From Methylomonas sp. 11b (GTDB lineage: Bacteria; Pseudomonadota; Gammaproteobacteria; Methylococcales; Methylomonadaceae), in the NCBI RefSeq assembly GCF_000515215.1, contig NZ_KI911557.1, forward strand, positions 1,054,001 to 1,118,000: a stretch of DNA of 64,000 bases, given 5' to 3'. The stretch's first letter is position 1. Each line of letters opens with the position of its first letter. The position numbers and the translations under genes are program-made. Below the pieces are notes generated by a model. It was not told the origin of the DNA. It did not search any database and saw only the letters and a list, made by a program, of their open reading frames with translations. Below are positions 46,468-56,161 of the stretch, in pieces.

Positions 46468-46992
46468 ATGAACGACTCAAGAACCCGCCTGGATAAAATC
46501 AATACCCGAATCAAAAACAACCCGGTGTTGTCCTTATTGATAGCCGTCAGCACCCTGGTTATAGGCCTTTCGACGTTTACCAATGCCACCCGGAATCTGA
46601 TGGATTTGTTGAGCGGCGCGGAGCAGAGGCCGGCGATCAACGGCGTATGGCAAGCCCAGGTCATTTATGACTGGCCCAACGCCAATTATCAAGAGAATTT
46701 TAATTTCGCCGGTAGCGATACGCAGCTATATGGCAGCGCTACATTTACCGGCAGCCAAAACGGCATATTGGAAGGCGAAATCACGGGTGATACCTTGCGC
46801 TTTATCACCAAAACTCCGGAATCGCTGGGATCAGGCCCCATACAAGAGGCTATCCATCGTTATCAAGGCAAAATGGCCGGCGATGAAATTAAATTTGTGA
46901 TGCAAACTGAAGGCGGTTATTCGGCGCATGTGCCTGTTGAGTTTACTGCGACGAGAACCGGCAATCCGGAGCTTCAGCCGGCACCCAACTGA
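46468..46992 (+). CDS. membrane-anchored protein with small beta-rich domain
   Basis: A 174-aa hypothetical protein with a charged N-terminus, one membrane segment (VLSLLIAVSTLVIGLSTF, about 20-38) and a beta-rich C-terminal region starting INGVWQAQV. The architecture resembles the protein at 35403-35915. No family recognised and no strong ribosome site before the ATG; the open frame and membrane topology support it as a gene. Confidence 0.68.
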   Translation: MNDSRTRLDKINTRIKNNPVLSLLIAVSTLVIGLSTFTNATRNLMDLLSGAEQRPAINGVWQAQVIYDWPNANYQENFNFAGSDTQLYGSATFTGSQNGILEGEITGDTLRFITKTPESLGSGPIQEAIHRYQGKMAGDEIKFVMQTEGGYSAHVPVEFTATRTGNPELQPAPN

Positions 46993-47188: not shown

Positions 47189-47316
47189 ACCCGGCCATTA
47201 AATGCTGTTCGCCTTTTGCCAGGGTACTGAGTTTACCGAAGGGCCACCAGCCTGGGCTTCGGCGAGCTCAGCCCGAACGGAATACCCTTGATAAATAGGG
47301 TCGGGTTAATAGCGAT
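47189..47316. repeat. extragenic palindromic repeat (copy 2)
   Basis: Begins ACCCGGCC and ends GGTCGGGTTAATAGC, with an inner CTGTTCGCC ... GGCGAGCTCAGCCCGAACGG arm. The layout and the terminal GGGTTAATA match copy 1 at 26362-26460, with many substitutions. It lies in the 685-bp gap ahead of the Nit1C cluster. An open frame across it (47116-47298) is not credible as a gene. Confidence 0.55.
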
Positions 47317-47497
47317 GGATAGCGCTGAAGGAATTTCTATGAAACGTCCAACCAGATCTGCCCTAAGTTTCGAGGGCAAATTTACTCAAGTAATTACACA
47401 TGCCAAAACCTCATATGATCTGAGTTGATTTGCTCGCTCGGCAAATTTAATGATTTGGTGAAATGTAACCATAACAGTTATGCGCTTTTTCAAGCCA

Positions 47498-47524
47498 TAC
47501 AGATTGCTTTTAGCTCAATCTGTA
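47498..47524. promoter_or_regulatory. dyad upstream of the Nit1C cluster
   Basis: TACAGATTG (47498-47506) and CAATCTGTA (47516-47524) form a perfect 9-bp inverted repeat with a 9-bp spacer, 153 bp before the first start codon. A second small palindrome, ATAAC-A-GTTAT, lies at 47471-47481. These are candidate binding sites for a regulator of the cluster; I cannot name it. Confidence 0.45.
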
Positions 47525-47563
47525 CTTAAAAATTAGGCCACAAACTGAATCTGTTTGGCTTTT

Positions 47564-47671
47564 TCCTGGGTTAGTAAAGTATTCACCGTCGACCACGCAA
47601 CGCTGGCGGCCAGAAATACTTCCCTGTATCCATCCCGTCGATGCAGGGCATTTTTTACTAACATCCAGGAG
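47564..47671 (+). promoter_or_regulatory. structured mRNA leader of the Nit1C cluster (possible riboswitch-like element)
   Basis: Three helices can be drawn. P1: 47564-47576 with 47656-47670, 13 Watson-Crick pairs and a 2-nt bulge. P2: AAGTATT (47577-47583) with AATACTT (47615-47621). P3: CCCTGTATC (47622-47630) with GATGCAGGG (47640-47648), one G-U pair, followed by CA and six Ts. They abut with no unpaired base between P1 and P2 or between P2 and P3. The 3' strand of P1 contains the AGGA of the ribosome site (AGGAG 47667-47671) for the ATG at 47678, so P1 would block translation, and P3 plus its T run could also act as a terminator. No known riboswitch class was recognised. Confidence 0.5.
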
Positions 47672-47677
47672 AACTCC

Positions 47678-48160
47678 ATGCCCGCAGTCACCTTACCGGC
47701 CCATCAAAAAGGCGATTGTTTTGTCGATTTCGAAGAAAAAGTATTTGAAGATGTCAAAGCAGAGCCAGGCCAGAAAGCCTTGGTCAAATTTCACACCGTC
47801 GCCTTCGAAGGGTCGATCGGTTTCGTCAATCTGCTGCAAGCTACCCGTTTACAACGCAAAGGCTTCGAAACCTCCATTCTGCTGTATGGTCCGGGTGTCA
47901 CTTTAGGTCTGCAACGCGGCTTTCCGCGTTTGGGCGACGAATCTTTCCCCGGTCATCAAAACTACGCCAATCAAATTGCCAAATTCATCGAAGAAGGCGG
48001 CAAAGTCTATGCCTGCCGCTTTGCCTTGCAAGCCTTGTACGGCCATGGCGAACCCAGCTTGTTGCCGGGTATTAGGCCGATCAGCCCATTAGACGTGTTA
48101 GATATTGTGCTGATCCATCAGCGCGACAACGCTTTCATTATGGATACTTGGACGCTGTAA
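47678..48160 (+). CDS. nitB: MSMEG_0572/Sll0783-family nitrogen-starvation protein (Nit1C, NitB)
   Basis: A 160-aa protein of the family that opens Nit1C clusters, recognised from [33 protein letters not shown], of which [13 protein letters not shown] and [10 protein letters not shown] segments are characteristic, and [14 protein letters not shown]. Its biochemical role is unknown; in cyanobacteria the relative responds to nitrogen starvation. The ATG at 47678 has AGGAG 6 nt upstream, and this site is buried in the leader helix P1. A strong palindromic terminator separates it from the nitrilase gene. Confidence 0.88.
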
Positions 48161-48231: not shown

Positions 48232-49227
48232 TTGACTATATCCACTATCGTCAGAGCCGCCGCCGTCCAGATCGCGCCAGTGTTCGAATCCGCCACCGCT
48301 ACTTGCGACAAGGTGTGCCAGGCCATCAGCGACGCCGCCGCGAAAGGTGCACAAATCGTGGTATTCCCGGAAACCTTTGTGCCGTATTACCCCTATTTTT
48401 CTTTCGTACTGCCGCCGGTCGCCCAGGGCCGTGAGCATTTGAAGCTTTACGATTTCGCGCCGACGGTGCCGGGACCTATAACTGATGCCGTTGCCGCACA
48501 AGCCAAGGCGCACGGCGTTGTGGTGGTGTTGGGCATTAACGAGCGCGACCACGGCAGCTTGTACAACACGCAATTGATATTCGACGAAACCGGCCGTCTG
48601 GCGCTGAAACGCCGCAAGATCACCCCGACTTATCACGAACGCATGATTTGGGGTCAAGGTGATGCCTCGGGCTTAAAGGTCGTAGAAACCGGCATAGGGC
48701 GCATCGGTGCTTTGGCCTGCTGGGAACATTACAACCCACTGGCCCGCTACGCCTTGATGGCCCAGCACGAACAAATCCATTGCAGCCAATTTCCCGGTTC
48801 ATTGGTTGGGCCGATTTTTGCCGAACAAATTGAAGTCACGATCCGCCACCATGCCTTGGAATCCGGTTGCTTTGTAGTTAACGCCACCGGTTGGCTCAGT
48901 GACGAACAAATTGACACGGTGACCACTGATCCTGGCCTGCAAAAAGCCCTGCGCGGCGGTTGCTGCACCGCCATCATCTCGCCGGAAGGTCAGCATGTTG
49001 TCGAACCCTTGCGCGAAGGTGAAGGCATATTGATCGCCGATCTGGATATGAATTTAATCACCAAACGCAAACGCATGATGGATGCGGTCGGCCATTACGC
49101 TAGGCCGGAACTACTTAGCCTGCGCATTGACGACAGGCCGGCGGCACCTATGTTCAGCGAACGACCAGCCGTTTCAACTCAACCCGTCCAAGAGAGCGAA
49201 CGCGATGATGCTATCAACACAAACTAA
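48232..49227 (+). CDS. nitC: Nit1C nitrilase (NitC)
   Basis: Carbon-nitrogen hydrolase of 331 aa. The catalytic set is complete: E47 ([13 protein letters not shown]), K129 ([12 protein letters not shown]) and C163 ([13 protein letters not shown]), with a second glutamate at 136. Enzymes of this subgroup are tied to cyanide assimilation in Pseudomonas, so hydrolysis of a cyanide-derived nitrile, or of a related organic nitrile, is likely. The start is TTG with CAGGAG about 10 nt upstream. The end overlaps the radical SAM gene by 23 nt. Confidence 0.93.
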
Positions 49228-54634: not shown

Positions 54635-54668
54635 GCAAGCGCACAGTTGCCTTTATAATGGCGCTTGC
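54635..54668. promoter_or_regulatory. -10 box flanked by an 8-bp inverted repeat before the MocR-type gene
   Basis: GCAAGCGC (54635-54642) and GCGCTTGC (54661-54668) are perfect inverted repeats around a consensus TATAAT (54654-54659). No good -35 box lies at the right distance. An operator that covers the promoter in this way would fit autoregulation by the MocR-type protein, and it makes a translation start at 54665 unlikely. Confidence 0.55.
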
Positions 54669-54715
54669 TGATCGAAGCAAAACAAGCAATGCCCAGCGCA
54701 AATGCAAGGATTAAC

Positions 54716-56161
54716 TTGGATAAAAACATGAAACACTTGTACGAAACCGTCGCCGATACGGTGATTGCGCATATCGAGCAGGGTGTTTACAAACCAGGCG
54801 AAAAACTGCCAGGGGTCAGGAAGCTGAGTCAGCAATTGAATGTCAGTGTTTCGACAGCGCTGGAAGCCTATCGCCTGTTGGAAGACAGCGGTAGGATTCA
54901 AGCGCGCTTGCGTTCCGGTTACTATGTCAGCAGCTTCCGTCGGCAGGCGATTGTGGAGCCGGACATTTCCGATGCGCCGGTCACACCCGCCAAAGTCACC
55001 GGCCAATCGCTAACCCGGCAAATTCTCCGTGCGGCCAAAGACCCGTATCAGATCAACTTGGGCTCTTCTGTACCGCATGCCGATTTTTTACCCACCCATG
55101 CCCTGCAACAGGCTACCGGCAAGGTGGCGCGCTCTTTTGGTAAGCGCTGTTTCGACGCCGACGAATTGCTGGGTAATCAGGAACTGCGCCGACAAATCGC
55201 CAAGCGCATGGTGGAATTGCAATGCGCCGACAGCCCGGACGACATTGTGGTGACCCACGGTGCGCGCGAGGCGGTCAGGCTGGCATTAATGGCTATTTGC
55301 GAACCTGGCGACTTGATCGCTATCGAATCGCCGACTTTTTACGGCTTATTGCAAGTCATTGAATCCTGCGGCATGGAGGCATTGGAGATCCCCACGCATC
55401 CGCGCGAAGGTCTGTCGTTGGATGCGCTGCAAATGGCTATTGAGCAATGGCCGATCAAAGCCTGTTTGATTGTCTCCAATTACAACAATCCGCTCGGCTC
55501 GTGCATGAGCGACGAACGCAAGCAAGCCTTGGTGGCTCTGCTCGAAGAACATCAGATTCCATTGGTCGAGGATGATGTCTACGGCGACCTGGGCTTTGGC
55601 TTGCGGCGACCATCGGTCTGCAAGGCCTGGAGCCGGAACGGTCAGGTGTTGTATTGCAATTCCTTCGCCAAGACCCTGTCGCCAGGCTTACGTGTGGGCT
55701 GGCTGGTGCCGGGCCGCCACATGGCGCGGGTGGAAAATCTGAAATACATGAAACACCAAGCCGTGCCGACTCTGAACCAACTGATAGTTGCGCACATGTT
55801 GGAACAAGGCGGTTACGACCGCTATCTACGGCAGGTGCGTCAGGAATATGCCCGCAACGTGGCATTGACCGTTAAAGCCGTCAGCCTGTTATTCCCCGAA
55901 GGCACCCGCGTTACTCAACCGGAGGGCGGCTTTGCCTTGTGGGTGGAATTACCAACCGGCGTCGATGCGATGGAACTGCACCGCCGGGCCAGTCAGGAAA
56001 ACATCATCATCGCCCCCGGCCCCTTGTTCTCGGCCACACAAAAGAAATTCGGCAATTTCATTCGCTTGAGTTGCGCCGTACCTTGGAACGACAGGGTAGA
56101 AAAAGCGTTGAAGAAGTTGGGGGATATTGCTTCGGATTTGCTGACACAAAATCGCCAATGA
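54716..56161 (+). CDS. MocR/PdxR-type regulator (GntR DNA-binding plus aminotransferase domain)
   Basis: A protein of about 481 aa with a GntR winged helix (YETVADTVIAHIEQGVYKPG onward), a linker and a fold-type I aminotransferase-like domain with PLP lysine in NSFAKTLSPGLRVGW. Such regulators sense PLP or an amino compound. Directly downstream of the Nit1C cluster, it is the best candidate for its local regulator, although this is inference. TTG 54716 with AAGGA 5 nt upstream is preferred; ATG 54728 lacks a site. Confidence 0.88.
   Translation: MDKNMKHLYETVADTVIAHIEQGVYKPGEKLPGVRKLSQQLNVSVSTALEAYRLLEDSGRIQARLRSGYYVSSFRRQAIVEPDISDAPVTPAKVTGQSLTRQILRAAKDPYQINLGSSVPHADFLPTHALQQATGKVARSFGKRCFDADELLGNQELRRQIAKRMVELQCADSPDDIVVTHGAREAVRLALMAICEPGDLIAIESPTFYGLLQVIESCGMEALEIPTHPREGLSLDALQMAIEQWPIKACLIVSNYNNPLGSCMSDERKQALVALLEEHQIPLVEDDVYGDLGFGLRRPSVCKAWSRNGQVLYCNSFAKTLSPGLRVGWLVPGRHMARVENLKYMKHQAVPTLNQLIVAHMLEQGGYDRYLRQVRQEYARNVALTVKAVSLLFPEGTRVTQPEGGFALWVELPTGVDAMELHRRASQENIIIAPGPLFSATQKKFGNFIRLSCAVPWNDRVEKALKKLGDIASDLLTQNRQ

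Follow-up and report, generated by a model that had tools for sequence, protein, structure and literature searches.

What controls the Nit1C gene cluster of Methylomonas sp. 11b, and does the very stable fold in front of its first gene act as an RNA switch? We analyzed a 64,000-nucleotide stretch of genomic DNA (the window), which carries the cluster and the elements in front of it on its plus strand. In the NCBIfam and Pfam assignments, the cluster opens with gene 1, a NitB-type member of the MSMEG_0572/Sll0783 family (47678..48160; TIGR04044, 274 bits against a cut-off of 109.85), and a nitrilase of the Nit6803 family (48232..49227; TIGR04048, 565.8 bits against a cut-off of 502.6). It continues with radical SAM, N-acetyltransferase, AIR-synthase-like, glycosyltransferase, MSMEG_0570 and flavin oxidoreductase genes and ends with a MocR-type regulator that combines a GntR domain with an aminotransferase-like domain (54665..56161; PF00392, PF00155). 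None of the named MocR equivalogs in NCBIfam reached its cut-off with this regulator, the best being PdxR (266.1 against 320). On the same strand upstream of the cluster lies a 174-amino-acid reading frame (46468-46992) that has no Pfam match, and frames of similar size stand upstream in several Methylomonas loci.

A preliminary description of the DNA between 47564 and 47671 had proposed a compact three-helix RNA leader. This stretch folds with a minimum energy of -40.1 kcal/mol, compared with -23.6 ± 3.5 kcal/mol for 200 shuffled sequences (z -4.74; none of the 200 as stable), so that a very stable fold is indeed present in the sequence. The outer helix, P1, pairs a 5' arm at 47564..47577 with a 3' arm at 47655..47670 and has the 2-nucleotide bulge ascribed to it, with 14 pairs (6 + 8) in place of 13. 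The AGGA (47667-47670) of the Shine-Dalgarno sequence AGGAG (47667..47671) sits inside P1, as described. The third helix has the nine pairs assigned to it (47622-47630 with 47640-47648) and is followed by CA and six T (47649-47656); the second, given as seven pairs, has six (47578-47583 with 47615-47620) and is capped by a separate small hairpin. The excess stability of the fold comes from P1; from the predicted transcription start onward (47587-47700) the energy equals that of shuffled sequences (z 0.01, 99 of 200 as stable). The description had recognized no known class of RNA, and no Rfam family matched the window at its gathering score; a search of 47300-47760 returned four weak matches, all below their gathering scores (E 0.67-6.2). 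The leader occurs once in its own genome, which speaks against a mobile repeat.

Candidate promoter, operator boxes and regulator

We sought gene 1 of Nit1C in 311 genomes of the order Methylococcales and found it at 24 loci in 22 genomes. Two genomes carry two clusters each (G105, loci L020 and L039; G126, loci L040 and L019), every cluster with its own leader and MocR orthologue. Alignment A1 comprised 24 rows, namely the 230 nucleotides upstream of 23 of the 24 loci and one Methylophaga leader (L094); G062 was left out because its leader is identical to that of G053. Two further genomes, G294 and G208, were left out of alignment A2, of the covariance model R1 and of those counts for H1, H2 and the terminator that refer to the remaining 22 leaders. 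From a separate scan of named genomes we retained the 80 highest-ranking loci.

The invariant columns of A1 lie mostly outside the fold and comprise CATAACAGTT, ACAGAT, ATCTGTAC, CTGAATCTGT and, in TAAAGT, the two terminal T. They fall in four boxes and a -10-like element. Box A (CATAACAGTT, 47470..47479) has a mean majority identity of 0.98 over the 24 leaders. Box B (CATACAGAT, 47496..47504) is a direct repeat of A, with a majority identity of 0.95 for its ACAGAT, and box C (ATCTGTAC, 47518..47525; 0.97) is inverted relative to both. Box D (CTGAATCTGTT, 47545..47555; 0.99 for 47546-47554) occupies the -35 position. The -10-like TAAAGT (47575..47580; 0.92) varies among the leaders to TAAACT, TTAAGT, TAGAGT, TAGAAT and TAAGAT, and its first and last T are invariant in 24/24. 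Majority identity is thus 0.95-0.99 in the boxes, compared with 0.59-0.69 in the stretches between them and 0.61 in the 19-nucleotide promoter spacer (47556..47574), which is fixed in length, drifts in sequence and contains most of the 5' arm of P1.

Spacings are as constrained as the boxes are. From ACAG to ACAG, boxes A and B are 25 nucleotides apart in all 24 leaders, B and C are 21 or 22 apart, and C and D 30 or 31; the CTGT of box D precedes the -10 by 24 nucleotides in every leader, with no length change in the spacer. Direct and inverted boxes at fixed spacing near a promoter, as expected of a MocR-controlled promoter, are therefore present, and the boxes and -10 at 47470-47580 have the look of a MocR-type operator combined with a sigma70-type promoter. 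Such a promoter would have -35 and -10 hexamers 16-18 nucleotides apart; a sigma70 consensus scan did not flag the site, and a weak -35 could fit a promoter that is activated. From the usual distance between a -10 element and the start of transcription, we predict a start at about 47587 (47585..47588).

The pattern ACAG-N21-ACAG-N16..18-CTGT occurs once in the genome of the window, at the Nit1C promoter, and has many chance matches (149 of the 311 genomes). Among the best 80 named loci, it stands upstream of gene 1 in 13 of 13 of the MocR type compared with none of 67 others. At least two genomes have a second copy a few kilobases from the Nit1C cluster and MocR gene (G276:C1:1371457-1371506 and G117:C1:2306029-2306078).

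The regulator travels with the cluster. In 21 of the order's 22 nit1C genomes, a MocR orthologue of at least 75% identity lies on the same contig, at a distance of about 0.5-10 kb; the exception, G294, has no MocR match at E 1e-60, on a short contig. None of the 289 genomes without nit1C has such an orthologue, and only paralogues of 51-57% identity were found in them at E 1e-60. In four genomes (G027, G040, G048 and G049) the MocR gene is divergent and directly upstream of the cluster. Of 31 paralogous MocR genes, at least 11 likewise have the three-box pattern beside them (in G023, G024, G025, G026, G100, G104, G106, G107, G108, G119 and G255); these paralogues are 51-57% identical to the Nit1C MocR. 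The paralogue in the genome of the window has no adjoining pattern.

With a probability of roughly two in three, we read this locus as a MocR-controlled Nit1C operon with an attenuator-like leader, P1 lying outside the main transcript. The basis of this reading is the conservation of the boxes, of their spacings and of a leader hairpin, H2, together with the co-occurrence of MocR. Positions 47470-47587 would be the sigma70-type promoter of the operon, and the MocR-type regulator (54665-56161) would bind the four ACAG/CTGT boxes, two direct and two inverted, of which the last occupies the -35 position. By analogy with its family, its signal may be a PLP adduct of an amino compound. Transcription would begin near 47587, which would place P1 outside the main transcript, and the RNA would carry a hairpin, H1, and then the terminator-like H2 with its U-run ahead of the ribosome site. 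The likeliest use of H2 would be attenuation, with some transcripts ending at about 47656. We infer MocR binding and activation, the start site, and termination and its control from the DNA sequence. The preliminary description had held that P1 could not form if transcription started downstream of 47577; the start at about 47587 lies there, as a prediction. On this reading, the likely controller of this methanotroph cyanide/nitrile cluster is a PLP-type MocR regulator, with a proposed operator and a predicted start site, in place of the riboswitch supposed at first.

Hairpins of the leader RNA

What is conserved in the RNA, judging from the aligned leaders, is H1 and, above all, H2. The terminator-like H2 (47622..47648, nine pairs) is paired in 93.2% of cells, compared with at most 52.0% when the arms are slid, and five of its nine pairs have changed on both sides. 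It has 12 double-change cells, a count that none of 500 shuffles reached. Set against a tree-based null, H2 stands out in its pairing (1 of 600 runs) and fails in its double changes (49 of 600). RNAalifold on A2 recovered only five pairs of H2, for which reason the hairpin arms were additionally compared by script. The comparison of single pairs with the tree-based null was underpowered, for H2 as well, and no single pair was significant.

H1 (47586..47610), which opens the predicted transcript, is paired in about 75% (74.7%) of cells on the MAFFT alignment, with no double change. With the arms set by hand, pairing rises to 81%, compared with at most 44% when slid, with one pair changed on both sides in the six loci of the window's type. 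The arms of one locus pair hardly better with each other than with arms from different loci (7.32 compared with 7.22 of 9), and H1 fails the tree-based null (459 of 600).

A T-run (47651..47656), two bases (CA) from the H2 stem, is at least five T long in 21 of 24 leaders and missing in G208 and G294. By the terminator-score formula, 9 of 22 leaders score positive strictly and 17 of 22 when up to two nucleotides may be skipped before the T-run. The window's own H2 scores -43.5 strictly, because CA separates its stem from the T-run, and passes only with the 2-nucleotide skip.

We built the covariance model R1 from the 22 leaders. At E < 1e-11 it matched 22 places in 20 genomes, every one directly upstream of nit1C gene 1; 21 of these are members of the model, and the remaining one (G062) shares a member's leader. 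Over 369 genomes of the class, the window's own genome was the sole match at E 0.001, and over 20 loci R1 matched none of the 13 outside the MocR type. The claim that Nit1C is preceded in these bacteria by a conserved leader with a terminator-like hairpin is supported by H2 pairing and by the model matches, and the retention of such a hairpin between promoter and gene 1 raises a question of its own. The next R1 match (G060:C29:11333-11432, 34.4 bits, E 1.1e-4) is in a genome without a match to nit1C gene 1, and the rest are weak. A DNA search with the leader gave matches of 29-39 nucleotides in G036, G170 and G103, genomes likewise without a nit1C match.

It is possible that H1 and H2 are passive, as a 5' stabilizer, as a weak fixed terminator keeping basal expression low or as the body of a short-RNA by-product, and that MocR does all the control. 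Such a role would suit the wide variation of terminator scores among leaders, the variable loops and the failure of H1 against the tree-based null, and we recognized no antitermination protein among the cluster products scanned; the one ANTAR protein in the genome is encoded about 400 kb from the cluster. However, H2 has been kept, with changes on both sides, across Methylomonas, Methylobacter-type, family f4 and Methylophaga leaders, which speaks against a hairpin of no consequence.

We consider it doubtful that the leader is a bistable attenuator, in which the 5' arm of H1 (47587..47593) would pair either with the 3' arm of H1, so that H2 terminates, or with 47637-47643 (the end of the H2 loop and the first bases of its 3' arm), so that the terminator is weakened, with some factor tipping the balance. 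The alternative pairing, itself tentative, came from a helix scan of A2, where, H2 apart, no other pairing among the 40 of 50 scan matches listed had many double changes. It holds in 81.5% of cells (best slide 63.5%) with 10 double-change cells, G027 and G049 change both sides relative to their genus mates, and the double changes of its loop part stand out from the tree-based null (3 of 600). Nevertheless, its pairing fails against the null (80 runs of 600, and 102 of 600 for the loop part); 15 of 500 partner shuffles pair as well, and the shuffles show more pair types. One of its sides overlaps H2, and the conservation of H2 is enough to account for the first four pairs. In five leaders H1 plus H2 is the more stable fold, by 9-17 kcal/mol; the row for a sixth (G040) was void, as the helix was lost there despite being forced.

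The outer helix

P1 is the most striking helix of the fold, and it probably lies largely in promoter DNA. It is strong in 10 of 24 loci, nine of them close Methylomonas loci and the other in G010 (one sister genome), and even there its outer six pairs are often broken. Among the other 14 loci, the 5'-arm region pairs with the stretch ahead of the start codon no better than shuffled sequences in 11 (p 0.07-0.76) and weakly better in G117, G276 and G029 (p 0.03-0.04); over all 15 loci that lie outside the close clade, G010 among them, the median p is 0.23. Its 5' arm overlaps the spacer and the start of the nearly invariant -10. The claim that a closing helix buries the ribosome site is not upheld across the homologues. 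These results also call for caution, as a very stable "RNA" fold can be partly promoter DNA.

Over A1, 66.2% of P1 cells are paired, compared with at most 53.5% when the arms are slid. Partner shuffles reached this pairing in 1 of 500 and the covariation score of P1 (0.157) in none of 500; slides by +1 and +3 scored as high (0.176 and 0.158). Pairing was above the tree-based null, none of 600 runs reaching it, in a test that is biased because the helix was chosen from the window's genome and its near-identical kin.

Whether P1 can hide the ribosome site depends on where a transcript begins. The probability that AGGAG is unpaired is 0.001-0.004 with starts at 47520 or 47556, compared with 0.38-0.39 with starts at 47570 or later. 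In Methylomonas, P1 might thus serve as a guard against read-through: transcripts from the operon's own promoter would lack its 5' arm and keep the ribosome site open, whereas transcripts running in from upstream would fold P1 and have their site silenced. The spacer and -10 would then double as an anti-Shine-Dalgarno sequence, and H1 and H2 could add a bistable attenuator layer. P1 is weak in the four loci with a divergent MocR gene directly upstream (G027, G040, G048 and G049), a point in favour of such a guard. However, it is weak also in loci without a divergent MocR, its strength shows a mixed relation to upstream gene orientation that is confounded by ancestry, and strong P1 is confined to one clade and G010, so that we regard this function as rather improbable.

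In IS10, the ribosome site of the transposase is hidden only in transcripts that started upstream, and P1 could act in the same way. In contrast to IS10, the Nit1C leader is not a mobile element, P1 is restricted to a clade and read-through is a supposition here. In locus L034 (G208), which keeps the boxes and the -10 and has no T-run, bases near the predicted start could pair over nine bases with the Shine-Dalgarno sequence.

It is unlikely that the leader is a ligand riboswitch that buries the ribosome site, and the broader proposal of a riboswitch or of a leader bound by a protein, with P1 closing and burying the ribosome site under the control of a ligand linked to cyanide, nitriles or nitrogen, is very improbable: the stable fold of the window, the near-complete burial of AGGAG with upstream starts and the support for P1 from partner shuffles and the tree-based null are outweighed by the small number of loci with strong P1, the equal scores of its slides, the biased choice of helix, the overlap with the promoter, the want of a conserved unpaired aptamer core or of an Rfam match at gathering score, and the poorly conserved loops (majority identity 0.53 for the H1 loop and 0.60 for the H2 loop), which argue against an aptamer. 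As a whole, the interpretation in the preliminary description is partly supported.

Known systems and other Nit1C clusters

The proposed MocR-controlled operon resembles MocR promoters of the GabR, PdxR and TauR types in several respects. A GntR plus aminotransferase-like regulator is linked to its target and is divergent from it in some genomes, and direct and inverted boxes lie near the promoter; here the target is Nit1C, and leader hairpins lie downstream of the promoter. The likeness concerns the arrangement of the boxes; the accessible part of the source gives two direct boxes and one inverted box as the commonest MocR motif (PMC5320631).

Like attenuators whose 5' leader holds an intrinsic terminator, the Nit1C leader has a terminator-like hairpin and a T-run between promoter and first gene. 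It differs in that we saw no leader peptide, no conserved aptamer and no clear antiterminator in it, and in that the window's T-run is two nucleotides off the stem. ANTAR-type leaders (NasR, AmiR) have two hairpins with six-base loops carrying A1 and G4. The Nit1C leaders also have two hairpins, the second terminator-like, but their loops, of 6-9 nucleotides in H1 and 3-11 in H2, are not conserved. ANTAR antitermination was rejected, as the six-base A1/G4 loops were not seen in the leaders and the sole ANTAR protein is distant. The only ANTAR-domain match in the window's genome is at G000:C1:698818-698976.

Each kind of component described here is known; in the open-access papers searched, we did not find them combined ahead of Nit1C. 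That literature yielded no paper that brought together MocR, nitrilase and methanotroph. Among the open-access matches listed for nitrilase-linked structured RNA none concerned a nitrilase with a riboswitch, and among those listed for MocR with attenuation none concerned MocR. A MocR gene near the cio cluster of P. pseudoalcaligenes is described as a putative repressor in the accessible part of PMC8567248, and small RNAs that target nit1C genes have been predicted in a source whose accessible part mentions no leader (PMC6368324).

In Pseudomonas, nit1C is controlled at transcription by NitA, a sigma54-dependent regulator of the Fis family, according to the accessible part of PMC11049912. The cluster type and regulation at the level of transcription are common to both systems; here, by contrast, the regulator is of the MocR type, and a sigma54-like site is absent from all 13 MocR-type loci among the best 80 named ones. 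The other 67 of those 80 loci (L054-L120) differ: 46 have a sigma54-like site within 200 nucleotides, compared with 0.56 expected from shuffles. Nit1C thus seems to exist in two or more regulatory versions, of which this leader represents one. At 47 of the same 67 loci, a MocR-like gene of 20-26% identity lies within 1.5 kb upstream, divergent in 41 and on the same strand in 6, with domains checked in three. To our knowledge, the AAA+ domain on which sigma54 promoters depend is missing from MocR proteins, which makes a pairing of the two odd; a sigma54-like site and a MocR-like gene nevertheless occur together at 39 of the 67 loci.
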